The notes below the pieces were generated by a model, which was not told the DNA's origin, ran no database searches, and saw only the letters and a program-made list of their open reading frames with translations. The position numbers were made by a program, and so were the translations under genes. Shown here piece by piece: positions 28,495 through 50,152 of a stretch of DNA of 64,000 nucleotides (position 1 is its first letter; each line of letters opens with the position of its first letter). This DNA is from Desulfurivibrio alkaliphilus AHT 2 (GTDB lineage: Bacteria; Desulfobacterota; Desulfobulbia; Desulfobulbales; Desulfurivibrionaceae), in assembly GCF_000092205.1 (NCBI RefSeq), contig NC_014216.1, positions 868,001 through 932,000 of the forward strand. Direction: 5' to 3'.

Positions 28495-28514
28495 CTTCTC
28501 TTCTCCCGCCCAGG

Positions 28515-29702: not shown

Positions 29703-31678
29703 CAGTCGTTCCTCCCGGGATGACAGTCGCGGCAGACCCCCTGGGCAAATGGGGTGTGCAGGACCGGATGCAACAGGCCGGCGGCGGGGGAGCCATGGGG
29801 GTCGTGGCAGCCCAGGCAACTGGCGCCGCCGGGGGCAAAGCCGCCGTGGCGCTGGCGGAAAGCAGGGCTATCGGTCCGGTGGCACTGCAGGCAGAGTTGC
29901 CCGTCGTCAACCGTCAGCAAGTGGGGCTGTTGGCCGCCGTGGCCCTGGTGGCAATCGGTACAGCGCCCGCGGGCCGGGGCGTGGGCAAAGCCTTCCTCCC
30001 AGTGGGCCGCGGCCTGCTGGTGGCAGTTGAGGCACAATTCCGGCTGCTCGCGCAACAGATGGTGTTCCTGGCCGCTGCCGTGGGCCGTGTGGCAGCCGGT
30101 GCAGTTACCCTGAGCCAGCAGCGGGTGGGGATGAGGCTGCTCCTGCTGCCCCCGGATCGCTTGGTGGCAGGCCAGGCAGGACTCGCCGGTGGGCCGGCGC
30201 TGGACAAAGGCGTGATCGGCCGCGTGGGGAGCGTGACAGTGCAGGCAAACGCCGTCCCGATAAGGGGGATGACCGCCGGCCGCTGTCGCGAGGGCGTCGG
30301 GCGCGGCATGGCATTGCCGGCACAGGGCGCCGCCCGCGGCCGGCCGGGCCAGCAGGGCCGGCTCCGGGGCCTGGTGAGGATCGTGGCACTGGCTGCACTG
30401 GCCGCGGGCAAAAGAAGGGTGCAGGCTGAACAGGGTCAACTCATTATCGAGCTGCTGGTGACATTCCAGGCAGAGCAGGCCGTCGGGCTGGGTCAGCAGC
30501 TTCCTCTCCGGCGACTGGTGGGGCTGGTGGCAAAAATTGCATTGTTGCGCCGCCGCCGGCGGGTGTGCCCCCGCTCCGCCGCCGTAGTCGCTTTGGGCGT
30601 GGCAGGTGGCACACAACGCCGCCGGCTCGGCCTGCAGTTGCCGCGCCGCCGGCGGCGCGTGTTCCTGGTGGCACTCAAGACACCGGCCGTCGCGGACGGG
30701 GGCATGGTGGCTGCGGGTGGGATGGTCGGTGGGGCCGGGATCGTGGCACTGCAGGCACAAGCGACCGGCCGGTTGCTGCAGCAGCGCCGGCTGGTCGGCG
30801 GCATGGGCGTTGTGGCACTGGAGGCAATCGCGGTCGCGGCTGGGGGGGTGGTTGCTGCGCGGCCAGTGGTCGGGATCGTGGCACTGCCGGCAGAGCTGTC
30901 CGGCGTCCGGTTCCGGCCGGCGCAGTTGGCCGTCGGCGACCTCATGGCAGCGGTGGCATTCACCCCGGCGCACCGGTTCGTGAACCCGGGCCCGCATCAG
31001 GCCGGGGCTGTCAGTAGCGTGGGGTTCATGGCAGGCCAGGCAGTTGTCCGTTACCTGATAACCGTGGTGCCCCTGCAACTGGGCGCTCTCTTCGGCGGGG
31101 TGGCAGGAGAGGCAGAGCGGGGCGGCGGCCTGGCGCAGCAGCGGCGACTGGTCGCTGTGGTGCGACTGGTGGCAGCTCAGGCACTGCTCCGGCGCCGACA
31201 GGGGGGCATGCTGTACCGGTTTGCGAAATGGCGCCTGTTCATGGCACCGGAAACAGAAGTCGGCGCCGACGGCGGGCAGCAGTTGCGGGTGGTGGCTGTG
31301 GTGCGGGTCGTGGCAGCGGCTGCAGTCGCCCCCCCGCAGCGGTGGATGGCTGCCCGCGGGGTCGGTTACCGCCGCCCGCTGCTCCTGGTGGCACTCCAGG
31401 CAGAGGCGGGGTTGCGGCTGGCGCAGATGGGCGCCGCCGATTACCCCGTGGGGCAAGTGACAAGCGGCGCACCGGTCCTCGGCCACCGGGGCGTGGGTAT
31501 GGCCCCGGGCAAAGGCGGCGCTTTCTTCGGCATGGCAATCGACACAGGTCTGGCGTTGGGTGGTGCGCTGCTCGTCCGCCGGGCCGTCCTTCCGGCAGGC
31601 GGCCAGCAGGAGTGCCGCCAGGGCGACAAGCAGGATCAACGTCGCCAGGTGGGCGCGATTAATTGCTGTTCTTTTCAT
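29702..31678 (-). CDS. 26-heme c-type cytochrome lipoprotein
   Basis: 658 residues from the ATG at 31678 (GGAGAG upstream). The N-terminus has a hydrophobic stretch ending in lipobox LLLAAC, so it should be lipidated. I count 26 CxxCH motifs, first CVDCH and last CRDCH, or one heme per 25 residues. They recur as pairs of the form C-x-x-CH-x-PH and LCLxCH with HxPx between, so the protein is essentially a tandem repeat. The start lies 20 bp inside the foldase gene. It is probably a surface or periplasmic wire linked to the 16-heme protein. Confidence 0.9.
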   Translation of the reverse strand: MKRTAINRAHLATLILLVALAALLLAACRKDGPADEQRTTQRQTCVDCHAEESAAFARGHTHAPVAEDRCAACHLPHGVIGGAHLRQPQPRLCLECHQEQRAAVTDPAGSHPPLRGGDCSRCHDPHHSHHPQLLPAVGADFCFRCHEQAPFRKPVQHAPLSAPEQCLSCHQSHHSDQSPLLRQAAAPLCLSCHPAEESAQLQGHHGYQVTDNCLACHEPHATDSPGLMRARVHEPVRRGECHRCHEVADGQLRRPEPDAGQLCRQCHDPDHWPRSNHPPSRDRDCLQCHNAHAADQPALLQQPAGRLCLQCHDPGPTDHPTRSHHAPVRDGRCLECHQEHAPPAARQLQAEPAALCATCHAQSDYGGGAGAHPPAAAQQCNFCHQPHQSPERKLLTQPDGLLCLECHQQLDNELTLFSLHPSFARGQCSQCHDPHQAPEPALLARPAAGGALCRQCHAAPDALATAAGGHPPYRDGVCLHCHAPHAADHAFVQRRPTGESCLACHQAIRGQQEQPHPHPLLAQGNCTGCHTAHGSGQEHHLLREQPELCLNCHQQAAAHWEEGFAHAPARGRCTDCHQGHGGQQPHLLTVDDGQLCLQCHRTDSPAFRQRHGGFAPGGASCLGCHDPHGSPAAGLLHPVLHTPFAQGVCRDCHPGRND

Positions 31679-33293
31679 GGCTCTCCAACTCCCGGCGCAG
31701 GCGTTGCCAGGCCGGTTGATTGATTTCGATGGCGGCATGCTGCCGCAGCCGGTTGATCAGTTCCGCCCTGACCTCCTGTTCTTTTTGTTCCTGCAAGGTC
31801 TGCCGGATTTCCTCCCGGACCGCCGCCAACGGCTGGAGTCGGCCGGGATGGCGGCCGCTCAGTCGCAGCAGGGCGTAATGATTATGCAGGGGAAAGAGGC
31901 GGCTGACCTCGCCCGGCGCCAGTTCCGCCGCCACCGCGGCGACAGCCGGATCGAGTTCGGTCACCGCCAGTCGCTGCCGCGGCGCCCCGCCGGGACTGTG
32001 CCGGCTGATGGCGGCGGTGAAATCGCGGCCGCCGACAATCTCCCGGCGCAGGTCGTCGACCAGTTCCGCCGGGCCGGTAAAGAGCATGAAGCTGAGCTCC
32101 TCCGGCCGGGTGAAAAGTTCGGGGTGCCGCTGGTAGTAATCCTCGATCTCCGCCTCCTCCACCACGGTTCGGGGCTGAATCAGGCGGGCGTCCAACTCCT
32201 GGATCAGCCGGTGCTGGCGGTAAAACTGGTAAATCGGGGCCAGCGGCTCACGCCGGTGGTAATCGCGGGCGTCGGCCTCCCAGGAGATCAGAGTCTGGGC
32301 GATGATCCCGTTGACCACCCTTTGTTTCAGGCGCTCGAACTCCTCTGCGGCAAACTGGTGGCGGCGGCGAAATTCCTGCTCGCGGCCCAAGACGGCCCAG
32401 AATTGAGCAACGGTGATCGGTTCCTGGTTGTTGTCAATCAGCACCAGGTCGGCCAATTCCTCCCCCGGTGGTTCCGGGCTGAGCCGGGCCAGCAGTTCGT
32501 GGTTGATCTCCACGGCGAATTTGGCTCGCAACCGTGCCACCAGTTCGCTGGTCAGCCGTTGCTCCTCACGGCGCCGCAGATCCCGTTCCAGGCCGGCGCG
32601 GTGCGGCTCCAGATCGGCGCTGGTGCTTTCCACCGCGGCGATAATCTGTAAAACGATGGCGCCATGGGTTCCCGGCAGCGGCCCGACCACATCCCCCGGG
32701 ACGGCGCCGGCCAGGGCCTGCTGCCAATCCGCCGGCTTGCGGGGCAGGTGCAAGCGGCGCTCCCCGCTGTGGTCGGGACCACCTGCGTCCGTTGGCAGTG
32801 TCGCCAGCTCGTCCGCCGTGCGGTGCCCCTCCTGCAGCTCGGCGGCCGCGGCGGTGGCCTGCTCTTCAGTATGGAAAAAGAAGTTGCGTACCTGGAGGAC
32901 CGGGGTGTGCTGTTCCAGGTAGAGTTGGTATAGCCTGTCATCCGTCAGTTCGATGCGCTGGTCCACCTCTTCCGCCTTCAAACGCATCAAAGAGCGGACC
33001 CGGCGAAAGACCTCCACCCGGCGCTGGAAGGTGGCTTCCCGATAGAGCTCCATCCGTTGCGCCTCGTGGGCTTGCAGGTGCCATTCCACGAAGGGGTCGA
33101 GGGTGGTCGGCAGCGGGGTCTCCGCTTCCCGCCATTCCCGCCACCAAGGCCGGAAATCGGCCACCGTATACACGGTGCCGTCGATGGTGACCAGCGGGGT
33201 CTCCGGCTTCGGCTGCAAACCGCGGGCCGCCGCCGGATCGGCGAGCGGTGCCAGCAGGGTCGCCAGCACCAGGAGCATCAGGAATCGGGGCAT
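31659..33293 (-). CDS. SurA/parvulin-like periplasmic foldase
   Basis: 544 residues from the ATG at 33293 with AAGGAG 8 bp upstream. Signal peptide (FLMLLVLATLLAPLADPAAA). The fold repeats twice: a SurA-N-like helical region with DFRPWWREW, then EEVDQRIELTDDRLYQLYLEQH and a PpiC-like segment, and again EEAEIEDYYQRHPELFTRPEE with a PpiC-like segment. Conserved parvulin active-site residues are weak, so chaperone action may outweigh isomerase activity. Peptidyl-prolyl isomerases occur near extracellular cytochrome genes in Geobacter. The 20-bp overlap with the 26-heme gene ties it to cytochrome export or folding. Confidence 0.8.
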   Translation of the reverse strand: MPRFLMLLVLATLLAPLADPAAARGLQPKPETPLVTIDGTVYTVADFRPWWREWREAETPLPTTLDPFVEWHLQAHEAQRMELYREATFQRRVEVFRRVRSLMRLKAEEVDQRIELTDDRLYQLYLEQHTPVLQVRNFFFHTEEQATAAAAELQEGHRTADELATLPTDAGGPDHSGERRLHLPRKPADWQQALAGAVPGDVVGPLPGTHGAIVLQIIAAVESTSADLEPHRAGLERDLRRREEQRLTSELVARLRAKFAVEINHELLARLSPEPPGEELADLVLIDNNQEPITVAQFWAVLGREQEFRRRHQFAAEEFERLKQRVVNGIIAQTLISWEADARDYHRREPLAPIYQFYRQHRLIQELDARLIQPRTVVEEAEIEDYYQRHPELFTRPEELSFMLFTGPAELVDDLRREIVGGRDFTAAISRHSPGGAPRQRLAVTELDPAVAAVAAELAPGEVSRLFPLHNHYALLRLSGRHPGRLQPLAAVREEIRQTLQEQKEQEVRAELINRLRQHAAIEINQPAWQRLRRELESHEKNSN

Positions 33294-33910
33294 AACAACC
33301 ACTCCTTACCTTGCCAATGGGTTAAAATTTCGCCTGCCGCGTTACGCGCCAAGCCGCTGATGGTGTGCGGTACACCGAAGTGCAGAAGGGTACGATAATC
33401 TTCACCCCGACGCTGGTGACTGGTGCTCCAGAGCTGGCGACCATGGCGGTCGAATACCCTGACCCGCACTTCCAGCATGGTGCGGGTCAGGTCCGCGGCA
33501 GGTCGTTCTTCCATGGCCAAGACCTCGCCGGCGATGAGCAGCTCGGCCCCCAGCCGGCCGGCAATGGCCTGCAATTGGTGCTGGTCCGGTACTTGCCACG
33601 GCGGCAGCCGCAACTGGCGGTAGACATTCATTACATCACCCTCCAGGGCCACCCGCCACTGCCGGCAGGCGGCCAGTTCGTCGGCCAGCAGCAACATCAG
33701 GAGGCGGCCGCCCGGGGGATGATCGCCGTGATCGATCACCGGCAGCACCGCCAGGCTGCGTGGCGCTTCGGCCAGGGGCAGCGGCCGGTAGGCCTGGGAA
33801 TGCGGCAGGGCGCTGCTGCAGGCAACCTGCTGGAGAGCCAGGGTCAGCAGCAGGGCAGCGCCGGCGCCGGCTTTAAAAATCCACCGTCCAGTAATCACTG
33901 TCAGCCTCAT
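33278..33910 (-). CDS. CsgG/GNA1162-like envelope protein
   Basis: 210 residues from the ATG at 33910. A hydrophobic N-terminus ends at ALQQVACSS, a poor lipobox (no Leu at -3), so lipidation is uncertain. The rest has the TolB-N/CsgG-type alpha-beta pattern: SLAVLPVIDHGDHPPGG, then LADELAACRQWRV and ELLIAGEVLAMEE, then VRVRVFDRHGRQLWSTSH. It is related in pattern to the next two upstream proteins. CsgG-family proteins form outer-membrane secretion pores or help assemble surface fibres. It overlaps its neighbours on both sides (15 and 38 bp). Confidence 0.6.
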   Translation of the reverse strand: MRLTVITGRWIFKAGAGAALLLTLALQQVACSSALPHSQAYRPLPLAEAPRSLAVLPVIDHGDHPPGGRLLMLLLADELAACRQWRVALEGDVMNVYRQLRLPPWQVPDQHQLQAIAGRLGAELLIAGEVLAMEERPAADLTRTMLEVRVRVFDRHGRQLWSTSHQRRGEDYRTLLHFGVPHTISGLARNAAGEILTHWQGKEWLLCPDS

Positions 33911-35456
33911 CGGTATCGCTGCTCTCCTCCTCCCCGTTCTCCTGCCGGAACAGATCCCGGCGCTCCAGCCGGATCTGATTACCCACCTGATCACGACCCC
34001 GGACCAGCAGCAGCACCGGTTCGGCGGCCACCACCGCCGCCGGCAATGCCAGTTCCACCGGCAAGCGGTCACCGTCGGCCGCGAAAACAATCTGCTGCTG
34101 CTCATTGCGCAGTTCCAGTTGCCAGGTGGTTACCGGCGGGGCGTCGCCGGCCGCCAGGTGCAGCCGGAGGCCGTCGGCCCGGTGCACCAGGGAGGTTTGC
34201 AGCGGCGGCGGCTGGCGCAGCACCAGAAAAGGCGCTTCCGCCGTCCCCTGGTTGCCGGCCCGGTCCCAGACCGTTAATCTGACCCGGTAGTGACCGTCCG
34301 GCACCGGCCGGCCATCCTGGCGCCGCCCCTGCCAGCGGAAACCGGAGGGCAGATTGTCGCGTCCGTCTTCGGCCCGCATCACCCTTCGCTGGTCGTCCAA
34401 CACTTCAATTTCCCAGGCACTCAACGGTTCCGGTTGTTCCATGGCGGCCACGATGCGCAACCGATCGCGGAGCACCACGGAGCCGTTGAGTTCCTGCCCG
34501 CGCAAGGTCAGGTGCAGGCGGGGACCGCTGCCATCCACCAGCAGGGTCCCGGCGCGAAAAAGCCGGTGTTCAGCACTTGCCGCGGGGGTCGCCAGCCCCA
34601 GGCGTACCCGGACCGAATAGTGGCCGTCGGCGGCCGGGGCGGGCCAGCTGACTTCATAGTAACCGCTGTCGGCCTGGTAAACGGCCCGCCACTGCTGATT
34701 GTCGATCAGTACCGCGACTTCCTGCTCCGCCTCCCGGATTCCCGGATCCACCTGGTCCACCTGGTCCACCGGGTCCAGGGGATAGATCCGGCAAGTGATC
34801 TGCTCGCCGGGACGGGCGATGTCCGGCGTTAATTCAACGCGCGCCGCCGGCGGCAGGGGGGCCTTCCCCGGCTGCAGGAGGGTGAAATCCCGGGGCCAGT
34901 CCGCCAGGGCGGCCGCCACCACCTGCTGTTCCAACTTGCTCAGCTCCCGGGGTTCGGCAATGGTCAACAGGCGCCGCAGATCAGCCCGGCTCAACTCCGC
35001 GCCGCCGGCCCAGAGCAGGCGGGCTTCGGCACTGCGGATCAACTGCAGTGTCAACCCCAGCCCCGGCGGCTCCTGCTGCCGGCTCTGGGTCACCGTGCCC
35101 AGCAACAGGTAGTCGGCCCCCAGTTCCCGGTACAGGGCCAGGGCCTGGCGGCTGTCGATCCGGCCCAGCTGACGGATGCGGTGGCGGACCATGAAGTCCC
35201 GCACCTCGGCGGCCGCCACCTGCCGTACCCCCCGTTGCTCCAGGGCGTGTCGCAGGTGCTCGGTGATGGTCGGGTTCATCCCGTTGTCACCCCGGCTCAG
35301 ATCTTCCACCGGCAACACCGCCAACCGACCGGCGGCGTTCACGCTGCCGGGCAGCGCCATCCACAGTGCCATGATTGTCACCATCAACCATTGAGTTAGC
35401 CTGATCCGGCGGCACCGGAACGCCGCCGGTCGGGCGCTGGGGCGGTTTGCAGCCAT
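33873..35456 (-). CDS. CsgG/TolB-N-like protein with FlgD-type Ig-like domains
   Basis: 527 residues from the ATG at 35456; the frame to 35582 overlaps the next gene. A signal sequence (about 20-42) precedes a CsgG-like domain (RLAVLPVEDLSRGD, ELGADYLLLGTVTQS). Then come several Ig-like domains, one with the FlgD pattern (FRWQGRRQDGRPVPDGHYRVRLTV shortened here: GRPVPDGHYRVRLTVWDRAG). A short Asp-Gln-Val repeat (PVDQVDQVDPG) lies between them. The C-terminus is acidic (EEESSDTDEADSDYW). It is probably periplasmic or surface-exposed. The fusion could hold a secretion pore to its cargo; that is inference. Confidence 0.65.
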   Translation of the reverse strand: MAANRPSARPAAFRCRRIRLTQWLMVTIMALWMALPGSVNAAGRLAVLPVEDLSRGDNGMNPTITEHLRHALEQRGVRQVAAAEVRDFMVRHRIRQLGRIDSRQALALYRELGADYLLLGTVTQSRQQEPPGLGLTLQLIRSAEARLLWAGGAELSRADLRRLLTIAEPRELSKLEQQVVAAALADWPRDFTLLQPGKAPLPPAARVELTPDIARPGEQITCRIYPLDPVDQVDQVDPGIREAEQEVAVLIDNQQWRAVYQADSGYYEVSWPAPAADGHYSVRVRLGLATPAASAEHRLFRAGTLLVDGSGPRLHLTLRGQELNGSVVLRDRLRIVAAMEQPEPLSAWEIEVLDDQRRVMRAEDGRDNLPSGFRWQGRRQDGRPVPDGHYRVRLTVWDRAGNQGTAEAPFLVLRQPPPLQTSLVHRADGLRLHLAAGDAPPVTTWQLELRNEQQQIVFAADGDRLPVELALPAAVVAAEPVLLLVRGRDQVGNQIRLERRDLFRQENGEEESSDTDEADSDYWTVDF

Positions 35457-35472
35457 GGCGCCACCACCCGCT

Positions 35473-36081
35473 CTAGCGGGGAATGGTGGCCAGCAACTCA
35501 TCCACCAGTCCCCGGGCCACCTGGTAACGATCCCGGGCGGCCAGGCCGAACAGCCGCCGGCTGAAAGAATCGCCATCGGCATTGCCGCCGGCCTGCCAGA
35601 TCACCAGCCCGCTTTCCACGTCCAACAGGCGCAGGGTAAGCGCCAGCTCCGGGTAGGTCACCGGCCCCTTGCGCTGCTCGGCGGCCACATCCACGGTGCC
35701 CAGCAACACTCCCTGAACCTGCAGGTGCCGGCCCAGCCGTTGCAGGGTGACGGCATCCAGCGGCTGGCCGGGATCCAGCACCTCCTCCCGCATCCGGCTG
35801 TCCACCAGCCCCTTGTCCACCACGTCGAACAGGCGCCGGTGCAACACCCGGGTCATAATGATATCCCGTACCATTTCCGGGGCAAACTCGTCCCGGCTGT
35901 TGTTGGCCAACGACAGCACGGCGATCTGGCGCATATATTCCAGGTCGATGTCGTCCCGCAGGTAGTAATCCCCGGCCCGGGTCGCGCAACCGCCGCCGGC
36001 CAGCAGGAGCTGGAGCAGCAGCAAGAACAGCAGCCAGAGCAGCGGCCGGCAACCGGTGCGGCAGGATACATTTGAGATCAT
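35473..36081 (-). CDS. CsgG-like outer-membrane lipoprotein candidate
   Basis: 202 residues from the ATG at 36081, with AAGGGGG 8 bp before it. A long hydrophobic run (LLWLLFLLLLQLLLAGGGC) ends in a lipobox-like cysteine. The mature part shows CsgG/LpoB features: QIAVLSLANNSRDEF, then MTRVLHRRLFDVVDKG and LQVQGVLLGTVDV, with LALTLRLLDVESGLVIWQ. This family includes the curli secretion channel and penicillin-binding-protein activators. It lies between the beta-barrel gene and two further CsgG-like genes, suggesting an outer-membrane assembly unit. Confidence 0.68.
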   Translation of the reverse strand: MISNVSCRTGCRPLLWLLFLLLLQLLLAGGGCATRAGDYYLRDDIDLEYMRQIAVLSLANNSRDEFAPEMVRDIIMTRVLHRRLFDVVDKGLVDSRMREEVLDPGQPLDAVTLQRLGRHLQVQGVLLGTVDVAAEQRKGPVTYPELALTLRLLDVESGLVIWQAGGNADGDSFSRRLFGLAARDRYQVARGLVDELLATIPR

Positions 36082-36117
36082 GTCGGCAACCCCCTTGGGC
36101 AACTCCCTCGGCCCGTT

Positions 36118-38229
36118 TCAGTGGCGGCGGTAACGGGCGCTGAGCTGCCCGTAAAAGCGCCAGTCATGCTCCCCGCCGCGGCGGATGTAGGTAGTGTTGG
36201 CCTGTAGCGTCAGCTGGGGGGCTAGGGCCCAACTGCCGGTGATGGTGTAACGATTGGTGGTCTCCAGACTGCGATGGTGCTGCCAGCGCCAGGAAAGCTG
36301 GGTGGAGCGGCTGGGTCTCATGGTGGCCTGGAGCAGCAAATCATCTTGCCGGCTGCTCCCGTTTTCCCACCGCTTGCCGCCCCGGGCAGTGAGCGCCAGC
36401 AGTTCGGAGGGCCGCCAGTTAACCTGCAGTTCGCCGCCGCTGTTCTCCCGGCCGGCGGCGGCCGTCGCTCGCTCCCGGCCGTAGTCGGTCTGCAATTCGG
36501 CGTGCAGGTTGGGGCGCAGCCGGCTGTGCAGCTTCAGCCGGAGGTGCTGTTGCCGACTGGTGTTGCCGGTCAGGTGCTGGCGGCCGCTGTGCCAGGTCAA
36601 ATCCAGATCGGCGTGCAGATCGGGGTATAGGCGGGCGCTGGTGTAAAGACCGGCTTCGTGGCTGGTGCGTTGCCGCCGGCCCGCCACGTAATTGTCGGTG
36701 CGATGCAAACCCAGGCTGGTATCCGCCGCCGGCCCCAGGGGGTGGCTGAGGCGCAGGCTGTAACCGCGCCGCAGGGTATCCTCCCGCCCGGCCAGGTTCT
36801 CGTGGTGCTCGTGCAGCCGCAGGGTGGAGCTGAGCGCCGCCGGCCGCCAGTTGAACTGGGCGTGCTGCCGCCGGCGCTGAAAGCTCTGGCCGGAGAGGTA
36901 ATCGCCCTGTTCAAAGGCGATCCCGCTGTCGAAACTCGACTTTTCGCTCAGGCGATAAGCCAGGCGCAGGTCGCTGAGGTGGCTTTCGGCCTGCCGGCTG
37001 AATTGGTGCTGCTCATCGACAACGGTCAGGAGCCGGGAGGCGGCCAGGCCGGTGAACGCCACCTCCACCAGGGAGCTGGCGGTGATTACCAGGGCCAGCC
37101 AGCGCTCCTCCCGCTGGGGCAGGGTGAGTTCAAAACGCTGGTCAGCGGGGTTATAGACCATGGCCAGGCTCTCTTCCCGGCGCTGGAAGTCGACGCCGTC
37201 GTCACTGCCGTAAAGGGCGAAGCTGAAATCGGCGGCAACCCCCGGCGCCAGTTCCTCGCCGGTGTAAAGGTATACCTGGTTAACCGGTTGATAATCCAGG
37301 CGCAGCAGCAGATGCCAGGGCGGGCTGTCGATGCCGTCGGTGGTCAAGGCGGCGGCCCCCTCCCGGTCATTGGCCGGCAGTTGATCGGCGGCGGTAAACT
37401 GTTCCTGGTCCAGCTCCTGCCCCGGCTGGTGGCGCCCCAGCAAAACCTCGGCCACCGTCGCCGGCTGGCGGAGTTGGTCGCGGCCGGCGCTGTCCAATTG
37501 CTGCCGCTGGTGGTGGTATTGCTGGGAAAAACCCAGGCGCAGGCGATCGGCGAAAAAACGGCCGTCGCCATCCAGGCGGAGAAACTGGTTGGTGTCCACC
37601 TGGTCGCGGTACTCAATCGGTTGCTGCTGCCAGTTGCGATTCAGGCGGTACTGGAGGCGCCAGGGTCGCTCCCCCCAGGCCAGAGCCAGGGCGGCCCGGC
37701 GTTCGGTCTGGTCGAGGCGGGGCGGGGCATGATGGTCGAAGCGGCGGGTCTCGCCGTAGTTGAGGCGCAACCGGGGCAGCCGCCGGTCATCCCAGTTGCC
37801 GGCCCAGCGCGCTTCCCAGTGGCGGCGCTGTTGGCTGGCGTCCGCCGAGCGTTGCTGGTAACCGGCATCTCCCTGAAGGTCGAACCGGAACAGGTAGTTG
37901 TCGATGTTCAGGCGTACCCCGGGATCGTAGCTTTGGCGCCGGCCCTCCGGCCGCCAGTGACTGCTGTAGCGGAAGGTTTCGTAGAGGGTCATGGTTTCCG
38001 TCAACTGTTGGCTGAGGTTCAGGGTATAGCCCAGATCATACTGATTGCGGGTGGCCTCGTCCTTACCCTGCTGGTGACTCCAGCGGGCGCTGAGGGCCTG
38101 GTCGGCGGCTGCCGGGAGAGCCGACAGCGCGAAAGCGGCCGGCAGGCTCCAGAGCAGACCCGGGAGCAACCGCAGCATTAACCATCGGCCGGCCCGGCTC
38201 CGGGCGGTTGTGCTTCCCTCGTGCTTCAT
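36118..38229 (-). CDS. Outer-membrane beta-barrel protein, possible conduit porin
   Basis: 703 residues from the ATG at 38229; the upstream open frame to 38394 is Arg-rich and contains a large hairpin, so it is not coding. A signal peptide ends near ALPAAADQ. The rest alternates polar and hydrophobic residues with many aromatic-ended strands (LTLQANTTYIRR, DWRFYGQLSARYRR at the end), typical of a large barrel with probably 20 or more strands. A middle segment (about 270-420) is less barrel-like and could be a plug or extracellular domain. Next to multiheme genes it could be the porin of a porin-cytochrome conduit, though no MtrB similarity is obvious. Confidence 0.72.
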   Translation of the reverse strand: MKHEGSTTARSRAGRWLMLRLLPGLLWSLPAAFALSALPAAADQALSARWSHQQGKDEATRNQYDLGYTLNLSQQLTETMTLYETFRYSSHWRPEGRRQSYDPGVRLNIDNYLFRFDLQGDAGYQQRSADASQQRRHWEARWAGNWDDRRLPRLRLNYGETRRFDHHAPPRLDQTERRAALALAWGERPWRLQYRLNRNWQQQPIEYRDQVDTNQFLRLDGDGRFFADRLRLGFSQQYHHQRQQLDSAGRDQLRQPATVAEVLLGRHQPGQELDQEQFTAADQLPANDREGAAALTTDGIDSPPWHLLLRLDYQPVNQVYLYTGEELAPGVAADFSFALYGSDDGVDFQRREESLAMVYNPADQRFELTLPQREERWLALVITASSLVEVAFTGLAASRLLTVVDEQHQFSRQAESHLSDLRLAYRLSEKSSFDSGIAFEQGDYLSGQSFQRRRQHAQFNWRPAALSSTLRLHEHHENLAGREDTLRRGYSLRLSHPLGPAADTSLGLHRTDNYVAGRRQRTSHEAGLYTSARLYPDLHADLDLTWHSGRQHLTGNTSRQQHLRLKLHSRLRPNLHAELQTDYGRERATAAAGRENSGGELQVNWRPSELLALTARGGKRWENGSSRQDDLLLQATMRPSRSTQLSWRWQHHRSLETTNRYTITGSWALAPQLTLQANTTYIRRGGEHDWRFYGQLSARYRRH

Positions 38230-38321
38230 CCCTGTCTCTGTCCCTGAGCGCTGCCGCCGTTGCCGTCGGCAGACGGTCGAGACCCGTCGCCGCTGCCGGG
38301 TGAGGTGATATGCGGTAAGCT

Positions 38322-38359
38322 GCCGGCCCGGGTGTGAGGGGTTGAGGACCCGGGCCGGC
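38322..38359. terminator. Strong hairpin between OmcS-like and beta-barrel genes
   Basis: GCCGGCCCGGGT (38322-38333) and its exact complement (38348-38359) form a 12-bp perfect GC-rich stem with a 14-base loop. No T-run follows. A weaker hairpin TGGGGT/ACCCCA lies at 38423-38443, closer to the OmcS-like stop. Together they could trim read-through, so that the cytochrome is made in excess over the downstream genes. Confidence 0.6.
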
Positions 38360-38475: not shown

Positions 38476-39516
38476 TCAACTCTTCGAGGTATGGCAGTGA
38501 GTACAGCCGGTCGCCTCAGCACCCTCGTGGGCCTTGATACCGCTGTAATCAAAGCGCAGCATACTGTCGTACTCCGAGGCGTGGGCCCGGTGACAGGAAA
38601 GGCAGGTGACGACGGCGGACTGGCTGGTGTCTTTGGCAACTGCGTAGCTGTCCATCTGCGAGGAACCCACCGGGGCCTCGAAGGTGAACTCATAATTCTC
38701 GTACTCACCGCCCAGTTGGGCCATGTCCAGGTCGGTGGGATGGCGCAGCCAGGGAGAGGACATCCCGTTTTCGGTAATCTTATCTCCGCTGTGAAAATCG
38801 CCATGACAGGTGGCACACATATTGCTTATGGTGCGTTCGGTAGAATCACCTGCACTTTCGCGATGCACGGCATAGTAAACATTGCGGTTCTCGACCTGCG
38901 GTACTGCTTCCCACATCATTCCTCGATAACCGTCAACTTCGCCGCGCAGCATCCGCATGCTCTCTCCCGTCTTCACCCGGTTGTTTTCATCATAACGCTC
39001 GGCATGGTGCTGACCGCTGATGGAGGCAAAGTTGCCTGCATCTGGGAGAGTTTGGGGATCTCCGTGGCAACCGGTGGCGGTGGCACAGGTGACTTGCCCC
39101 ATCATCATGCCGCCCGGGGCGGTGCTAATGTCTTGATCGGCATCGACAACCCCCACCACGTTATGGCCCTTACGGTCATCCTGGGTCACCCAGTAAAAAC
39201 TGCCGGCGGCGGTTTCGCCCATTGGTTCGCCGGCATGATATATAGCCGGCGCATAATTATCCGGATTCAGCGGCGTGCCATCACTGCTATGACAACCAAG
39301 ACAATCCCCCCGGGTCAGGGCGGGATAAACCGCCTCTGACTCATCGTAGGCCATTGACTCGCCTTCAAAGCTGCCGTGCATGGTATGGCAGTTGACACAT
39401 TCACCGCTGACCTGGGCCGTCGCCTGGTCGGCCAGCAGGTAACCGCTGCCGACGATCACCGCCGCGGCCAGCAACGGTTTCCACAGTTGTTTGTTGATCC
39501 TGATTTGCTTTTTCAT
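38476..39516 (-). CDS. OmcS-like multiheme cytochrome, paralogue 2 (5 CxxCH + CX5CH)
   Basis: 346 residues from the ATG at 39516, with GGAGG upstream. The signal peptide ends near ATAQ. Heme motifs: CVNCH 40-44, CLGCH 72-76, CX5CH at Cys144-Cys150-His151, CATCH 234-238, CLSCH 305-309 and CTHCH 338-342. Shared words with Geobacter OmcS: CHTMHGS, DRKGHNV, TAPGG, LRHP, CLSCHRAHAS with DSM.RF. OmcS is about 430 residues; this is shorter, with a shorter C-terminus. A sigma-54 promoter lies about 305 bp upstream and a strong hairpin follows, so it is a separately controlled gene. Best candidate for the filament subunit. Confidence 0.85.
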   Translation of the reverse strand: MKKQIRINKQLWKPLLAAAVIVGSGYLLADQATAQVSGECVNCHTMHGSFEGESMAYDESEAVYPALTRGDCLGCHSSDGTPLNPDNYAPAIYHAGEPMGETAAGSFYWVTQDDRKGHNVVGVVDADQDISTAPGGMMMGQVTCATATGCHGDPQTLPDAGNFASISGQHHAERYDENNRVKTGESMRMLRGEVDGYRGMMWEAVPQVENRNVYYAVHRESAGDSTERTISNMCATCHGDFHSGDKITENGMSSPWLRHPTDLDMAQLGGEYENYEFTFEAPVGSSQMDSYAVAKDTSQSAVVTCLSCHRAHASEYDSMLRFDYSGIKAHEGAEATGCTHCHTSKS

Positions 39517-39809
39517 TAGCCCTTCCTCCTCTGCTCCATCTTCTTTGGGTTCTGACCTCTTCCAACTTGCACCTTCCCGTGGTGGCACCCTTACCGCTAG
39601 GGTCCGGGATGTCGGACCCCGGCGGACAACCCAGCGGCGCCCAGTCGACTTCATTCCCCGTACTTTACCTTGACTACCTCCCTGTTACATGTTCGTTAAC
39701 CGTTAGCCGGCGTCGACCGGGGCGCCGTTGGGGCCGGATCCCGTAAGGGTGAAAGCCATGGCTCGCAGTGGAAACCCACTAGCGTGGTCCGGTTGGGTCC
39801 GGTCTTGTA
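39517..39809 (-). other. Long structured leader of the OmcS-like gene
   Basis: Between the predicted sigma-54 start (near 39809) and the ATG lie about 290 bases without a gene. Hairpins are visible: AGTGG/CCACT at 39767-39780, GGTCCG/CGGACC at 39601-39618, and GC-rich pairings around 39711-39745. I looked for the c-di-GMP riboswitch core and did not find it. The leader may affect stability or translation. Confidence 0.4.
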
Positions 39810-39819
39810 GAGTCGAGAG

Positions 39820-39835
39820 AGCAAGTTGCATGCCA
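39820..39835 (-). promoter_or_regulatory. Consensus sigma-54 promoter of the OmcS-like gene
   Basis: On the minus strand the sequence reads TGGCATG, four bases, TTGCT, a full match to TGGCAYR-N4-TTGCW with GG and GC exactly ten bases apart. It faces the OmcS-like gene and lies about 265 bp from the stop of a sigma-54 activator gene. Confidence 0.75.
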
Positions 39836-39957: not shown

Positions 39958-39995
39958 GATCAGAAACTGATCAATATACCGGCTAGTTTCTGATC
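39958..39995. promoter_or_regulatory. Inverted repeat, candidate upstream activator site
   Basis: GATCAGAAACT (39958-39968) and its exact complement (39985-39995) are 16 bp apart. The first arm is also part of a compact palindrome, GATCAG-AAA-CTGATC (39958-39972). It lies roughly 140 bp upstream of the -24 element, the usual distance for an NtrC-type enhancer. Confidence 0.5.
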
Positions 39996-40087: not shown

Positions 40088-41440
40088 TTAAGAAGAGGGG
40101 GGGGTGAAGGGGTTTTGCAGTTGGTAATCGCGGATCTTTTTGCGCAGGGTGGTGGGGGAAACCGCCAGCCGGCGGGCGGCTTGGCTGATGTTCCAGTCCA
40201 CGGCCGCCAAGGTCCGTTCCACGTGGCGTTTCTCTGCCGCCGCCAGGCTCAGGAGTTCTTCCTTGCTCTCGGGCCGGCCGGCGGCCGGGGGCTCCAGTTG
40301 CAGATCGTCGGCCACCAGCACCGGATCAACACTCAAGGCCACGGCCCGGGTGAGGACGTTTTCCAGTTCGCGGATGTTGCCGGGCCAGTTGTGGGCCTGC
40401 AACTTGCGCAGCGCCGAACCGCTCAACCGGGGCCGGCGGCATTGCAGACGCTGGGTAATGCGGGTCAGCAGGACTTCGGTCAGCAGCGGGATATCGCTGC
40501 GCCGGTCCCTCAGCGGCGGCAAGCGAATCGTGGAAACGCTGAGCCGGTACCAGAGGTCCTCGCGGAAGCGCCCTTCCTGGACCAGGCGGGGCAGGTCGCA
40601 ATGGGTGGCGGCGATGATCCGGGCCTTGAGAGGGAGAGTTTCCAGGCCGCCCACCCGGGTGAACTCTTCCTCCTGCAGCACCCGCAGCAGCTTGGCCTGC
40701 AGGTCCAGCGGCATGTCGCCGATTTCATCGAGAAAGATGGAGCCGCCGGCCGCGTATTCCAGTTTGCCGATTTTGGTCTGGTCGGCGCCGGTGAAGGCCC
40801 CCTTTTCGTGGCCGAAAAATTCGCTCTCCAGCAGGGTGGCCACCACCGCCGAACAGTTGACCGCCACAAAAGGCTGCTCGGGTGCGGCCGCCTGATGCAG
40901 GATACGGGCCGCCAGTTCCTTGCCGGTACCGGACTCTCCTTCGATCAGCACCGTAACCCGGCTGCGGGCCAGCAGGCCGATCTGTTTATGCAGTGCGATG
41001 ATCGCCGGATGGTTGCCGATCATTTCCGGCGCCGGGCTCTCGGTGAGCGCCTCCTCCTGGTCGGCGGCGGCCGGCGCGGCCGCCCGCAGGTGGGTCACCC
41101 TTTTAATTACCTGCCGCACCTCATCCAAGTCCAGGGGTTTGCGCAGGAAATCGAAGGCGCCTCCGTGCATGGCCTCCACCACCGCCGTGTTGTCACTCTC
41201 GCCGGTGATCACCACCACCGTCGGGCTGCCGGGGCCGGCCAGCAGGGCGGACAAAGCCTTCAGGCCACTGTAATCGGGCAGGTTGACATCCAGAAAGATC
41301 AGGTCCGGGGCAAACGCGCGCGCTTCGCTCAAACCCCGTTCGGCGGCTAGGGCGCAGCGGGTTTCGTGTTGCTGCATCCCCAGTTGGATTTGCAGCGAAC
41401 GGCCCAGGGCCTGGTCATCATCGATGATTAAGATTTTCAT
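40088..41440 (-). CDS. NtrC-family sigma-54-dependent response regulator
   Basis: 450 residues from the ATG at 41440, where the receiver begins (MKILIIDDDQ); an upstream GTG at 41455 is possible. The receiver (1-118) has Asp51 as phospho-acceptor. The AAA+ domain (about 140-370) has Walker A GESGTGKE and the sigma-54-contacting GAFTGA loop (214-219). The C-terminal Fis-type helix-turn-helix reads WNISQAARRLAVSPTTLRKK. It should bind an enhancer and open sigma-54 promoters; the promoter at 39820-39835 beside its gene is the obvious target. The NtrB-like kinase at 44033-45973 is the likely partner. Confidence 0.93.
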   Translation of the reverse strand: MKILIIDDDQALGRSLQIQLGMQQHETRCALAAERGLSEARAFAPDLIFLDVNLPDYSGLKALSALLAGPGSPTVVVITGESDNTAVVEAMHGGAFDFLRKPLDLDEVRQVIKRVTHLRAAAPAAADQEEALTESPAPEMIGNHPAIIALHKQIGLLARSRVTVLIEGESGTGKELAARILHQAAAPEQPFVAVNCSAVVATLLESEFFGHEKGAFTGADQTKIGKLEYAAGGSIFLDEIGDMPLDLQAKLLRVLQEEEFTRVGGLETLPLKARIIAATHCDLPRLVQEGRFREDLWYRLSVSTIRLPPLRDRRSDIPLLTEVLLTRITQRLQCRRPRLSGSALRKLQAHNWPGNIRELENVLTRAVALSVDPVLVADDLQLEPPAAGRPESKEELLSLAAAEKRHVERTLAAVDWNISQAARRLAVSPTTLRKKIRDYQLQNPFTPPSS

Positions 41441-41515
41441 GGCGGTTGACACCAAATTCGGGTTGCAAGCGAGCGTAGATATTTTTTCCTGATGGCAGTT
41501 TCCAGCTTGCCCGCT

Positions 41516-41760: not shown

Positions 41761-41798
41761 AACAATTTTCAGCAATGAAGGGAAGCGGAGTTGGCGGG

Positions 41799-42914
41799 AT
41801 GACAAACAGATGGTTGAGATGGTTATTGTGCTGTTGGGTGGCCGCGGCGGCCGCCACGGCAGAAGCGGAGACGGCGATATTTCTGGCGCCGCCGGAGGGG
41901 CAGGTATGGCAGACTACGCGGACCCACCTCTCCGTAGTGGTGCAATGGCCCGATCAAGCTGAAGATCGCCCGGAACTGCGGCACAACCAGCAGTTGCAAG
42001 AGCCGCACGGGGTGTACCCAACGGAGCTCGCCGCTGCCCAATTTGCCCATTTCCGTCTGGAATTGCATGAGGGGCTGAACCGGCTGGAACTGGTGCCCGG
42101 CGGCCCCAGTCTGGAAATGATTTATCGGCCCCGGCCTGCCGGCGATGAGGCGCAGCAGTACCGTTTCCATCGCCGGCAACTGCTGCCGGCGACTTGCCGC
42201 CAGTGCCATAGCGAGCAAGCGGAACTCTGGCCCACCGCCCCTTACCGGGAAGTCGGGAGGCAGGTCTGTCTGCCCTGCCACCAGGAGAAGTTAACCCAGG
42301 CCTGGCGCCACGGTCCGTCCATCAATTACCAGTGCCTGGAGTGCCACCGACCGACGTCGGAGGAGGTTACGGTGGTGCTGCCGGCCGGGCCTGTTGACCA
42401 ACTCTGTTTCCGCTGTCATAGTGGTAAAGAACAGTTGTTCAAGCAGCCTCATGTGCATGCACCGGTGGCGGTCGGTGACTGCACCGTCTGCCATGATCCC
42501 CACGGGGATGTCCGGCGGCGGCAATTGTGGGCCGGCGGCAAGGGTGAACTTTGCGTGGCCTGCCACGGGGACAAGACCGCCCTGGTCCATGATCCGGAAC
42601 GGGTGGCGGGTTATGTGCACGGCATTATCGGCGGTGGCGGTTGCACGGCCTGCCACGACCCCCATGCCGCCGGGCAGCCGTTTTTATTGGCAGTGGAGAT
42701 TAATGAGCTGTGCCTTGGCTGCCACACCTCCCTGCGGGGGGTGGAGAAGGGCCATCCAATCGGGGCGCACCCGGTGGCCGGTGCTGATGATCCGGCCCGG
42801 CCAGGCCGCCGGCTCTCCTGCACCAGTTGCCATGATCCCCATCAAGCCGATTTCCCGGCTCTGCTGGGTGGCAGGGTGTTGGGGGGAACGGTCTGTAAGC
42901 CATGCCATCGTTGA
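41799..42914 (+). CDS. Decaheme c-type cytochrome
   Basis: 371 residues from the ATG at 41799, chosen over 41775 because GGAG lies 8 bp upstream. Signal peptide (LRWLLCCWVAAAAATAEA). A heme-free N-terminal domain of about 115 residues (beta-rich, TAIFLAPPEGQVWQTT) precedes ten CxxCH motifs, from CRQCH to CKPCH, several in CHDPH form. The N-terminal domain may bind another surface protein, or a carbohydrate. It is the first gene of a plus-strand trio (cytochrome, NHL propeller, kinase), 18 bp before the propeller gene. Probably periplasmic or outer-membrane associated; it has no lipobox. Confidence 0.88.
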   Translation: MTNRWLRWLLCCWVAAAAATAEAETAIFLAPPEGQVWQTTRTHLSVVVQWPDQAEDRPELRHNQQLQEPHGVYPTELAAAQFAHFRLELHEGLNRLELVPGGPSLEMIYRPRPAGDEAQQYRFHRRQLLPATCRQCHSEQAELWPTAPYREVGRQVCLPCHQEKLTQAWRHGPSINYQCLECHRPTSEEVTVVLPAGPVDQLCFRCHSGKEQLFKQPHVHAPVAVGDCTVCHDPHGDVRRRQLWAGGKGELCVACHGDKTALVHDPERVAGYVHGIIGGGGCTACHDPHAAGQPFLLAVEINELCLGCHTSLRGVEKGHPIGAHPVAGADDPARPGRRLSCTSCHDPHQADFPALLGGRVLGGTVCKPCHR

Positions 42915-42932: not shown

Positions 42933-44036
42933 ATGACCGGAGCGAAAAAGGTTGTTGGGCGGCGTCCTGAACGATTATGGCCGCTGCTGTTGTTGATGAT
43001 GATTATGATAGCGGCCGGAACCGCCACCGCGGCGGGGCCGCCGGCCCCGGTCCCACCAGGGGTAAACTTGCATGTGGTGCTGGAAAAACTGATCCTGCGG
43101 GATCATCGCGGCGACTTGTTGCGCTATCCTTCCCAGCTGGCCTTTGATCCCGCCCAGGAAGAGATCTACCTGCTGCTGGCCGACCGGGGGGGATTTGTGG
43201 TTTACGACTACGATTTTTACCCCCACCTATTCCTGGGCAAAGGGCGGGGTCTGCAGCGGCCCCGGGCGGTTTTTTTTGCCCCCGCCGATCACCGGGTCCT
43301 GGTAATTCAGGGGCGGATCGACCAGCGCCCCCCGAGTTTGCTTATCTTCGATGGCGCTTATCTGCCGCTGATCGAAATTGAACTCAAGACGCCGGATACA
43401 CCGGAAGGAGAGCACGATTTTGTCCCCTCCGCGGGGGTAGTGGGGCGCAACGGCGATATTTATCTGGCCGGCGGTGATCCCCGGGGGGTTATGGTACTCT
43501 CGCCGGAGGGCGCTTTTCGCCGCTGGCTGCCCCCTCTGGCAAGCGGGGAAGTAACCGGGGAAGAGGAAGTCGCAGCGGGACCGATCAGCTACCTGACCCG
43601 GGATACGCAGGGACGACTCTATGGTCTCAGCGAGGAGGCGGGCAAGGTGTATGTTTATTCGGCCAGCGAAGAACTGCTTTACAGTTTCGGCCAAAAAGGG
43701 GCCAATGTCGGTCAGTTGAGCCGCCCCCGCGGACTGGCGCTGGATGAACGGCGCGGTCTGGTTTATGTGGTCGATTACATGCGCCACAGTGTCCTGGTCT
43801 ATTCCCTGAATGGTCGTTTCCTGCACGAATTCGGCGGTCGCGGCACCGCCCCCCGCTGGTTCAATTTCCCCAACGCCGTGGTGGTGGATGCGCAGGGCCG
43901 GGTGGTGGTGGCCGACATGTTCAACCACCGGCTCCAGGTTTTACGACCGGAATTTATCGGCCCCGGACCAGTGGGACCTATCCCGGCTCCCGGGCCGTCA
44001 GCGGAGCAACCGCCCCGGCGGGATGAGCGGGAATGA
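42933..44036 (+). CDS. NHL-repeat beta-propeller protein
   Basis: 367 residues. Ribosome site GAGGGG precedes the ATG. A signal-type segment (LWPLLLLMMIMIAAGTATAA) is followed by six or so blades: EEIYLLLADRGGFVVYDY, GDIYLAGGDPRGVMVLSPEG, GRLYGLSEEAGKVYVYS, and the classic NHL blades RGLVYVVDYMRHSVLVYSLNG and GRVVVADMFNHRLQVL. A Pro-rich tail ends it. It resembles the propeller at 27529-28494 in layout. Its stop overlaps the kinase start by 4 bp, so it could be the periplasmic ligand or tether of that kinase. Confidence 0.85.
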   Translation: MTGAKKVVGRRPERLWPLLLLMMIMIAAGTATAAGPPAPVPPGVNLHVVLEKLILRDHRGDLLRYPSQLAFDPAQEEIYLLLADRGGFVVYDYDFYPHLFLGKGRGLQRPRAVFFAPADHRVLVIQGRIDQRPPSLLIFDGAYLPLIEIELKTPDTPEGEHDFVPSAGVVGRNGDIYLAGGDPRGVMVLSPEGAFRRWLPPLASGEVTGEEEVAAGPISYLTRDTQGRLYGLSEEAGKVYVYSASEELLYSFGQKGANVGQLSRPRGLALDERRGLVYVVDYMRHSVLVYSLNGRFLHEFGGRGTAPRWFNFPNAVVVDAQGRVVVADMFNHRLQVLRPEFIGPGPVGPIPAPGPSAEQPPRRDERE

Positions 44037-45973
44037 AGGGAGATATGGGGTGCAGAGTGGCGAATCTGGCCGCCACCGGTGGGATCTGGAGCAAGATACG
44101 CGCCTGCGTGTTGATTGCCCTGGCCGGTTACTGCCTGGCCACCCTGGCCGGCTTTTACGCCAGTTGCCAGCAGACCGGCCGCCTGAGCCAACTGCTGGAA
44201 ATCCATTACCCTTTGGCCGGACAAGGGGTGGAAGCAGCGGCCAAGTCGCAATTGGAACTGGCTTACTACCACGAAGCATTGGTCTCCGGCAGCGTGGGAA
44301 CACTGGCCGAGGCCGAGCGGTTGAGCGTGCAGGTGCAGGAACTGCTGGCGGAAATGCTGACCCTTGCGACCCGTGAGGATGATGGCGATCCGGTGGCTGC
44401 CCGGATCGCCAACCTGCAGCGCTGGCATGAGCAGTACCTCCGCCGGGTCCAGGCCAATTTCGCACTCCCGGAAGCGGGGGAAGAGTGGGCGGTCAGTCAG
44501 CAGGAGCTTACGGAACTGGCGGTGATGAAAGATGATCTGCAGCAACAGTTCCTGGCCCTGGCCGGGCAGTTGAGCGCTAAAGTCAAAGGGCTGGTAGAGC
44601 TGGAAAGGGATCGGGCGCAACGCCATAATTTGTACCTGGGCCTGTTTTTCGTGCTGGTCCTGGTGATCACCATGGCGATCAGTCGTTGTTTCGCCCTGCG
44701 CCAACTGATTGAGCCCTTGCAGGGCGTCCGGCAGTTGGTGGACCGTTATGCCCGCAAACGGGACGCCGGCTCGCCGCCCCAAGGCCGGACGGACGATGAA
44801 ATCTTTCAATTGGCCGAGGCGATCTGGCATTTGCTCCGGGAACTGGATCAGACCACGGTGACCCGGGATTACGTCGACAGTATCCTGCGCCAGATGAATG
44901 GCTGTTTCATGCTGCTGGATGCCGAACAGAAGCTGCTGAAAATCAATGACTACACCGGTAAGCTACTGGGCTATGGCGAGGATGAAATGGTGGGGCGGCC
45001 GCTCAGCGATTTTGTGGCCCCCGGCAGCGCGATCCGTTTTGCCCGACTGGCATCGGATCTGCTGACCGCCGGCAAGGAAGTGGACAACCTGGAGATAGCC
45101 CTGCAAACTAAAGAAGGGCAAGCGGTTTCCGTTCTTTTCTCCGCCACCTCACCGGTGCTGGGCGAGCAGGACAAGGGCGAAATTGTTTGCCTGGCCCATG
45201 ATCTTACCCAGCGCAAAAAAGCCGAAGAGATGTTGCGGCGGGTGGCCGTGGAACGGGCGACCGCCAAATCGGCGGCACTGGCGGCGGTCGGGGAACTGAC
45301 GGCGGGATTGACCCACGAGATGCGCAACCCCCTTTCTTCAATTCGGATGAACACCCAACTGCTGCAACAATCCACCCGCCTGCTGCAACAGGGGCTGCAG
45401 CGGCCGGAACTGGTCGAGCTGGCGGAGATCAGCCGCCAGCAGGCCCTGCGCCTGGAAAAAATGCTTAATGATCTGCTGGGTTACGGCAAACCTCTGACCC
45501 TGCGCCTGGGCCTGATCCGCATGGGGGAACTGCTGCAAAGCGTGGTCGAGGCCGTTGAGGTGGAACGGGAACAGGCCGGCGTGCAACTTGCCGTTGACGA
45601 TCAAACCGACGATTGCAGGATGGAACTGGACGGGGAATTGATGATCAGGGCGCTGAGCAACCTGGTGCTGAATGCCATCCAGTGGTCACCCCAGGGACAA
45701 ACGGTGGAACTGTTGGCCCGCTTCGGGGAAAACAGCGATGACGGGGCCAAACAGGTGGTATTCGAGGTGCGGGATCATGGCCCGGGGGTTACGGCGGAAA
45801 AGCGGCACCGGCTGTTTCAACCCTTTTTCACCACCCGCAGCGGTGGTACCGGGATGGGGCTGGCAAATGTCAAAAAGATCGTGGAGTATCATGGCGGTAC
45901 CGTGAGCGCCGCCAACCTTCCGGCCGGTGGCGCGGTGTTCCGCCTGGAACTGCCGCTGGTGATTCCCAGTTAA
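44033..45973 (+). CDS. NtrB-like membrane sensor histidine kinase with PAS domain
   Basis: 646 residues. TM1 (about 22-42) and TM2 (about 200-220) enclose a helical periplasmic sensor of about 155 residues. Next come a HAMP-like linker and a PAS domain (about 280-395). HisKA follows with GLTHEMRNPLSSIRMN (His428), then HATPase_c (NLVLNAIQWS, DHGPGV, GGTGMGLANVKKIVEYHGG), the style of NtrB/AtoS/ZraS partners of NtrC-type regulators. There is no receiver domain. Overlap with the NHL gene couples the two, and the regulator gene at 40088-41440 lies just across the divergent promoter region. Likely input: envelope or redox state; the signal is unknown. Confidence 0.9.
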   Translation: MKGDMGCRVANLAATGGIWSKIRACVLIALAGYCLATLAGFYASCQQTGRLSQLLEIHYPLAGQGVEAAAKSQLELAYYHEALVSGSVGTLAEAERLSVQVQELLAEMLTLATREDDGDPVAARIANLQRWHEQYLRRVQANFALPEAGEEWAVSQQELTELAVMKDDLQQQFLALAGQLSAKVKGLVELERDRAQRHNLYLGLFFVLVLVITMAISRCFALRQLIEPLQGVRQLVDRYARKRDAGSPPQGRTDDEIFQLAEAIWHLLRELDQTTVTRDYVDSILRQMNGCFMLLDAEQKLLKINDYTGKLLGYGEDEMVGRPLSDFVAPGSAIRFARLASDLLTAGKEVDNLEIALQTKEGQAVSVLFSATSPVLGEQDKGEIVCLAHDLTQRKKAEEMLRRVAVERATAKSAALAAVGELTAGLTHEMRNPLSSIRMNTQLLQQSTRLLQQGLQRPELVELAEISRQQALRLEKMLNDLLGYGKPLTLRLGLIRMGELLQSVVEAVEVEREQAGVQLAVDDQTDDCRMELDGELMIRALSNLVLNAIQWSPQGQTVELLARFGENSDDGAKQVVFEVRDHGPGVTAEKRHRLFQPFFTTRSGGTGMGLANVKKIVEYHGGTVSAANLPAGGAVFRLELPLVIPS

Positions 45974-50088: not shown

Positions 50089-50152
50089 AAGCTGCGTTGT
50101 CCAAATCAACTTGTTTCAAGTTCTCTCCCGGGCGCCTAAACTGGGCCGCCGC

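Follow-up and report, generated by a model that had tools for sequence, protein, structure and literature searches.

Desulfurivibrio alkaliphilus is a soda-lake bacterium, and a gene at 38476-39516 (minus strand) of the stretch analysed here raises the question of whether the multihaem cytochrome that it encodes is the subunit of an OmcS-type nanowire, and with what control and what helpers such a wire would be made. OmcS of Geobacter is a hexahaem protein whose subunits assemble into filaments that conduct electricity. The stretch (hereafter, the window) is 64,000 nucleotides long and corresponds to positions 868001-932000 of the single contig of 3,097,763 bases that was searched as the genome. 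Regulation, secretion and anchoring of cytochrome nanowires are regarded as an open question (PMC12307469), and iron-oxide respiration driven by sulfide has been shown for D. alkaliphilus in the main text of a recent study (PMC12545173; Nature 2025). Because the window holds, in this iron-oxide-respiring organism, a small and conserved gene cassette together with a sensor/regulator pair and a candidate enhancer of known position, the regulation and assembly of nanowires become testable. The locus combines homology to OmcS, an OmcS-like predicted fold and conserved haem ligands with a conserved promoter, enhancer and cassette, and we consider it likely that the gene encodes a secreted filament subunit of the OmcS type, which is controlled by sigma-54 and an NtrC-type regulator, is supported by the cassette and carries electrons to iron(III) oxide.

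An OmcS relative and its predicted fold

The gene starts with the ATG at 39516, preceded by GGAGGAAGGGCTA as a good ribosome-binding site, and its product has 346 amino acids. The signal peptide ends near Ala34, a cleavage site judged by eye, and the mature protein from about Gln35 on has 312 residues, compared with 407 in OmcS; the protein is indeed smaller, as the earlier note on this DNA had said. All of the sequence words by which that note had recognized OmcS (CHTMHGS, DRKGHNV, TAPGG, LRHP, CLSCHRAHAS and DSMLRF) are found in it. The haem sites are, in order, CVNCH, CLGCH, CATATGCH, CATCH, CLSCH and CTHCH. There are six attachment sites in the OmcS order, but only five of them are canonical CXXCH motifs, and the third is a CX5CH motif that the note had passed over.

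The resemblance to OmcS is not a matter of chance. A single-sequence phmmer search of the PDB found OmcS at E 9.6e-11, and a family profile built from 25 sequences matched OmcS (6ef8) at E 6.2e-28 over positions 4-298, nearly the whole chain; the two proteins are about 30% identical and homologous along most of their length. At the level of sequence, homology over the haem-bearing chain is therefore firm. An AlphaFold model of the apo-monomer, computed with 91 sequences, reached a pLDDT of 78.6 and a pTM of 0.80, and its sole significant PDB match by Foldseek was again OmcS 6ef8 (E 5.5e-7, TMq 0.49). With a second structure aligner, 262 residues superposed on OmcS at 4.4 A (Z 14.1), which supports an OmcS-like fold for the modelled monomer. 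OmcE of Geobacter sulfurreducens (7tfs), which shares inter-subunit haem ligation in principle, gave only a weak structural match (Z 3.6, 129 residues); it is a nanowire protein with four haems, and it is absent from the sequence-search matches. For DA_402, the only one of the three D. alkaliphilus homologues that is modelled in the main text of the 2025 study, a TM of 0.56 and a DALI score of 14.3 against OmcS are given there (PMC12545173), so that the predicted fold of the window protein matches OmcS about as closely as the published DA_402 model does.

In that text, DA_402, DA_756 and DA_765 are described as OmcS-like cytochromes of D. alkaliphilus that are up-regulated when sulfide oxidation is coupled to ferrihydrite reduction (PMC12545173). 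Two primers printed in the paper, for DA_402 and recA, each have one exact match in the genome. The window has two OmcS-like genes lying nine genes apart, as the numbers 756 and 765 do, and from this gene count and position the gene at 38476-39516 is almost certainly DA_765 and that at 26434-27510 DA_756. The product of the former belongs to the sister clade of OmcS and, as DA_765, had already been presented as an OmcS-like protein in 2025 (PMC12545173). A scan of species genomes confirmed at least 504 relatives, of which 80 were kept; those among the matches listed come from Desulfobulbaceae, Desulfuromonadales, Thermodesulfobacteria, Nitrospirota and others. Within the set of 91 sequences the window protein sits on a long branch and has an unusual composition, with the highest contents of Asp+Glu and of Met, and it has another residue at 13 positions that hardly vary otherwise, among them Y153M, F155M and W288F (mature numbering).

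Haem ligands and the re-organised third site

In mature numbering, histidines 10, 13, 42, 84, 136, 137, 204, 208, 225, 275, 278 and 308 occur without exception in the 91 sequences, and a distal histidine candidate is available for each haem (H13, H84, H136/H137, H208, H225 and H278; also 91/91), although which histidine serves which haem is suggested by sequence comparison. The ligand positions in CHTMH, GHN, RHP and CHRAH are shared with OmcS of G. sulfurreducens (6ef8/6nef), as are the number and order of the haem sites, and alignment of the protein with 13 OmcS-type sequences pairs H13, H84, H208, H225 and H278 with OmcS H16, H110, H247, H257 and H335, respectively. His47 of the precursor (mature H13; 39376-39378, minus strand), located in CHTMH, thus occupies the place of OmcS His16, which is the inter-subunit ligand to haem 5 of the neighbouring subunit in OmcS filaments. 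Of the 12 OmcS ligands, 11 belong to the subunit that holds the haem, and the twelfth, on haem 505 (haem 5), is supplied by the neighbour (Filman 2019; PMC6584659). The earlier note had pointed to such an inter-subunit histidine as a test of the OmcS comparison, and the one aligned with OmcS His16 is invariant in all 91 sequences, a conservation seen in sequence only. As in OmcS, the second histidine of the N-terminal CHTMH would complete haem 5 ligation in the next subunit, and secreted subunits, joined head to tail, would build a filament outside the cell along which respiratory electrons reach iron(III) oxide.

The third site, CATATGCH at 39064-39087 (minus strand), is less simple. In the alignment of the 91 relatives, both cysteines are present in every sequence, the histidine in 90, and the CX5CH spacing in 83; in the remaining eight, this place is taken either by an extended segment containing two CXXCH-like motifs or by a degenerate version. 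OmcS reads C140-SS-C143-H144-DP-H147-G at this place and the window protein C110-ATATG-C116-H117-G, with H117 aligned not to the proximal H144 but to the distal H147. OmcS C143 and H144 have no counterpart in the window protein, and C116 and the invariant HH pair (136/137) are new. Judging from this alignment, the third site has been re-organised, and an unbroken stack of six haems is not assured. A CX5CH haem in mid-wire, if present, would probe how much latitude there is in the construction of the haem chain.

OmcS-like genes with a second haem motif inserted at the CX5CH place occur at six loci (L003, L041:6367-7371, L036:10504-11463, L046:8706-9758, L066:8784-9839 and L077:67-1164). These variants are possible intermediates toward CX5CH, and it may be speculated that CX5CH arose when the first cysteine of one motif became fused to the CH of the motif after it.

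Alternatively, the CX5CH site might hold no haem at all, which would leave a pentahaem subunit with a gap in the chain and no continuous wire. CX5CH is not a canonical attachment motif, and a literature search with this term found no paper. Against this stand the near-complete retention of the two cysteines and the histidine, and the invariant HH as a ligand candidate. Haems are known to be attached at other spacings as well, CX4CH among them. Furthermore, CX2-5CH is counted as a haem motif in the main text of the 2025 study (PMC12545173). We regard the pentahaem subunit as quite improbable, and a haem at the CX5CH site, as the conserved residues suggest, as the better assumption.

A cytochrome of the OmcS family need not polymerise by itself. 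The protein, with its OmcS-like fold, could instead carry electrons at the surface or in the periplasm, either as a monomer or as a minor component or cap in a filament consisting mostly of DA_402. The earlier note had pictured a highly made structural subunit, and this description is not supported by the expression data given in the main text of the 2025 study, where the most-transcribed homologue is DA_402 and not DA_765 (PMC12545173). Genomes hold several OmcS paralogues and each cassette two, which also suggests that not all of them need be the bulk subunit, and the re-organised site 3 points in the same direction. Even for OmcS, the physiological conduit role is disputed (PMC11077965). 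However, the CHTMH histidine, which in OmcS serves the neighbouring subunit, does not vary here, and the predicted fold comes as close to OmcS as that published for DA_402. A protein that does not form its own filament is thus an unlikely alternative, if the weightiest one, and a self-assembling filament subunit remains the reading that we prefer.

Sigma-54 promoter, candidate enhancer and leader

A perfect match to the sigma-54 promoter pattern GG-N10-GC, TGGCATGCAACTTGCT, lies at 39820-39835 (minus strand; 0 mismatches), 319 nt upstream of the ATG. Further upstream by 125 nt, a palindrome of the form CAGAAACT-N16-AGTTTCTG (39961-39992) is conserved in relatives and is a candidate enhancer. 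The gene directly upstream of the OmcS-like gene encodes an NtrC-type sigma-54 response regulator with a receiver domain, an AAA+ domain with GAFTGA and a Fis-type HTH (40088-41455, minus strand). Beyond it lies a divergent unit on the plus strand consisting of a multihaem cytochrome (41775-42914), an NHL-repeat protein (42933-44036) and a PAS sensor histidine kinase (44033-45973), presumed to be the partner of the regulator. The region between the divergent NtrC-type and cytochrome genes has no sigma-54 site at up to 2 mismatches. In the proposed mechanism, the adjacent regulator would act from the palindromic enhancer to activate the sigma-54 promoter, and the nearby kinase would be the likely sensor; binding of the regulator to the candidate enhancer is presumed, and the wiring from kinase to regulator to enhancer is suggested by proximity.

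A single sigma-54 site is weak evidence, and the intergenic regions of ten loci were therefore compared: the window and nine related loci chosen for an NtrC-type gene directly before the OmcS-like gene. One sense sigma-54 site (up to 1 mismatch) is present in all ten regions and an antisense site in none, compared with a mean of 0.07 loci in shuffles, although the loci are related and so do not amount to ten independent tests. The palindrome lies upstream of the sigma-54 site in 10/10 loci and never in shuffles; the leaders of these loci are otherwise largely unalignable. Its arms in the ten loci are CAGTTTCTG and CAGAAACTG, in reversed order and with a 16-nt spacer in the window, and its distance from the promoter ranges from 91 to 309 nt. 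This recurrence of promoter and enhancer supports the sigma-54 control that the earlier note had proposed.

Genome-wide, there are 23 perfect sigma-54 sites and none matching the reversed pattern, and the genome has an rpoN gene. One further perfect match, at 38811-38826 on the plus strand, lies inside the OmcS-like gene on the opposite strand and was taken as a chance occurrence. Two others, on the minus strand at 469887 and 471623, stand 182 nt ahead of the ATG of DA_402 and 140 nt ahead of that of its tandem twin, respectively. The palindrome, on the other hand, occurs only once in the 3.1 Mb genome, and likewise once in each of six related genomes where it matches exactly. Sharing of this enhancer by DA_402 is thereby ruled out, and some other site must serve the second cassette. 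The promoter had been called private in the earlier note: the word suits the single-copy enhancer, but not the sigma-54 sites, which also stand before two other OmcS-like genes. As far as such sites can tell, D. alkaliphilus seems to place OmcS-like genes under sigma-54 as a recurrent feature of its genome.

Could the site and the palindrome serve something else, for example an unrelated small RNA, with the OmcS-like gene being read from the regulator transcript or from another promoter? The 319 nt between site and ATG and the varying distance between enhancer and promoter leave some room for it. Nevertheless, in all ten loci the site lies on the strand of the gene, past the stop codon of the regulator, with only this gene after it, and perfect sites also stand ahead of DA_402 and its twin. 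Such a separate target is very improbable in our judgement, and the OmcS-like gene is taken as the target in what follows.

Counted from the sigma-54 site, the transcript would have an untranslated leader of about 293 nt (39517-39809, minus strand), in agreement with the long leader of the earlier note; in relatives it measures 165-290 nt. It folds no better than shuffled sequences (z -0.85), and the leaders of relatives could not be aligned and share no conserved element. Rfam yielded no riboswitch or other RNA element in the window at gathering scores, and none in the leader even with the E threshold relaxed to 5. Behind the gene, a hairpin with a 12-bp perfect stem (38322-38333 paired with 38348-38359; 38322-38359, minus strand) lies in a region with a fold z of -3.7, and it is as strong as the earlier note had described. 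It has no U-tract or T-run and was not reported by a terminator scan, and was rejected as an intrinsic terminator; its role may be to reduce read-through or to protect the mRNA.

The cassette, its second copy and Geobacter-type loci

Downstream of the gene, a block of genes on the same minus strand begins with a predicted outer-membrane barrel protein (36118-38230, with a likely ATG at about 38230), recognized by weak Pfam matches and composition. It continues with an LpoB-like lipoprotein (35473-36102), a protein with an LpoB/FlgO-like domain and a FlgD-type Ig domain (33873-35582), a small lipoprotein-like protein whose ORF start is uncertain (33278-34105) and a PpiC-type peptidyl-prolyl isomerase (31659-33302). 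These are followed by a large many-haem cytochrome with 13 paired-CXXCH matches (29702-31738), another with 8 (28515-29819) and an NHL-repeat protein (27529-28542). Then comes the second OmcS-like cytochrome (26434-27510), whose third site is also CX5CH, and a multihaem cytochrome (24976-26415) ends the cassette. The order of barrel, lipoproteins, PpiC, many-haem cytochromes and NHL protein is shared by most of 79 loci. Probably, the cassette serves secretion, folding and electron loading, as its predicted locations and conservation suggest: the barrel, the lipoproteins, the isomerase, the many-haem cytochromes, the NHL proteins and the second OmcS-like protein would divide these tasks. A second complete cassette, at 454133-476182 of the genome (L152, L153), contains DA_402, the tandem twin and a kinase and an NtrC-type gene of its own.

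The cassette around omcS itself is syntenic with that of the window in the omcS loci of four other genomes, which have OmcS at 57-73% identity. In three of the four Geobacter-type loci, a c-di-GMP-I/GEMM riboswitch is found at omcS (L139:9126-9213, L140:15899-15974 and L142:820-905); it was not found in the window or in the two relatives tested (L037 and L053). Sigma-54-like matches over the Geobacter-type loci are about as many as chance predicts. In L142, a one-mismatch sigma-54 site at 783-798 is followed by the riboswitch and then by the omcS ATG at 924, and in L140 a one-mismatch site precedes the NHL gene upstream of omcS. Given these two sites, a clean exchange of riboswitch for sigma-54 between the lineages would be too strong a claim. 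The firm difference is the absence of a riboswitch from the window, together with the conserved enhancer.

In G. sulfurreducens, the RpoN regulon includes sigma-54 promoters of surface electron-transfer functions such as pilA, and omcB responds to RpoN; OmcS and the tags GSU2503 and GSU2504 are absent from the text of that study (PMC2725144). The main text of the 2025 study mentions neither sigma-54 nor two-component control (PMC12545173), and the main texts of the literature examined describe neither the layout of promoter and enhancer, nor the altered third haem site, nor the duplication of the cassette. Tentatively, and with rather less than even confidence, we propose that Desulfurivibrionaceae and their kin have a distinct variant of the cassette, with a CX5CH third haem and a dedicated switch of kinase, NtrC-type regulator, enhancer and sigma-54 promoter that lacks the cyclic-dinucleotide riboswitch of Geobacter-type loci, and that D. 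alkaliphilus has two such cassettes under separate regulators.

Two minor observations may be added. A genome of the same family (G023) carries, on contigs C15 and C4, OmcS-type genes that are 54-62% identical to Geobacter OmcS and may have come by horizontal transfer of the Geobacter type. In the window, a cytochrome c assembly protein (PF01578; 46123-46986) and a PAS-GGDEF-EAL protein (47032-50109) adjoin the cassette.
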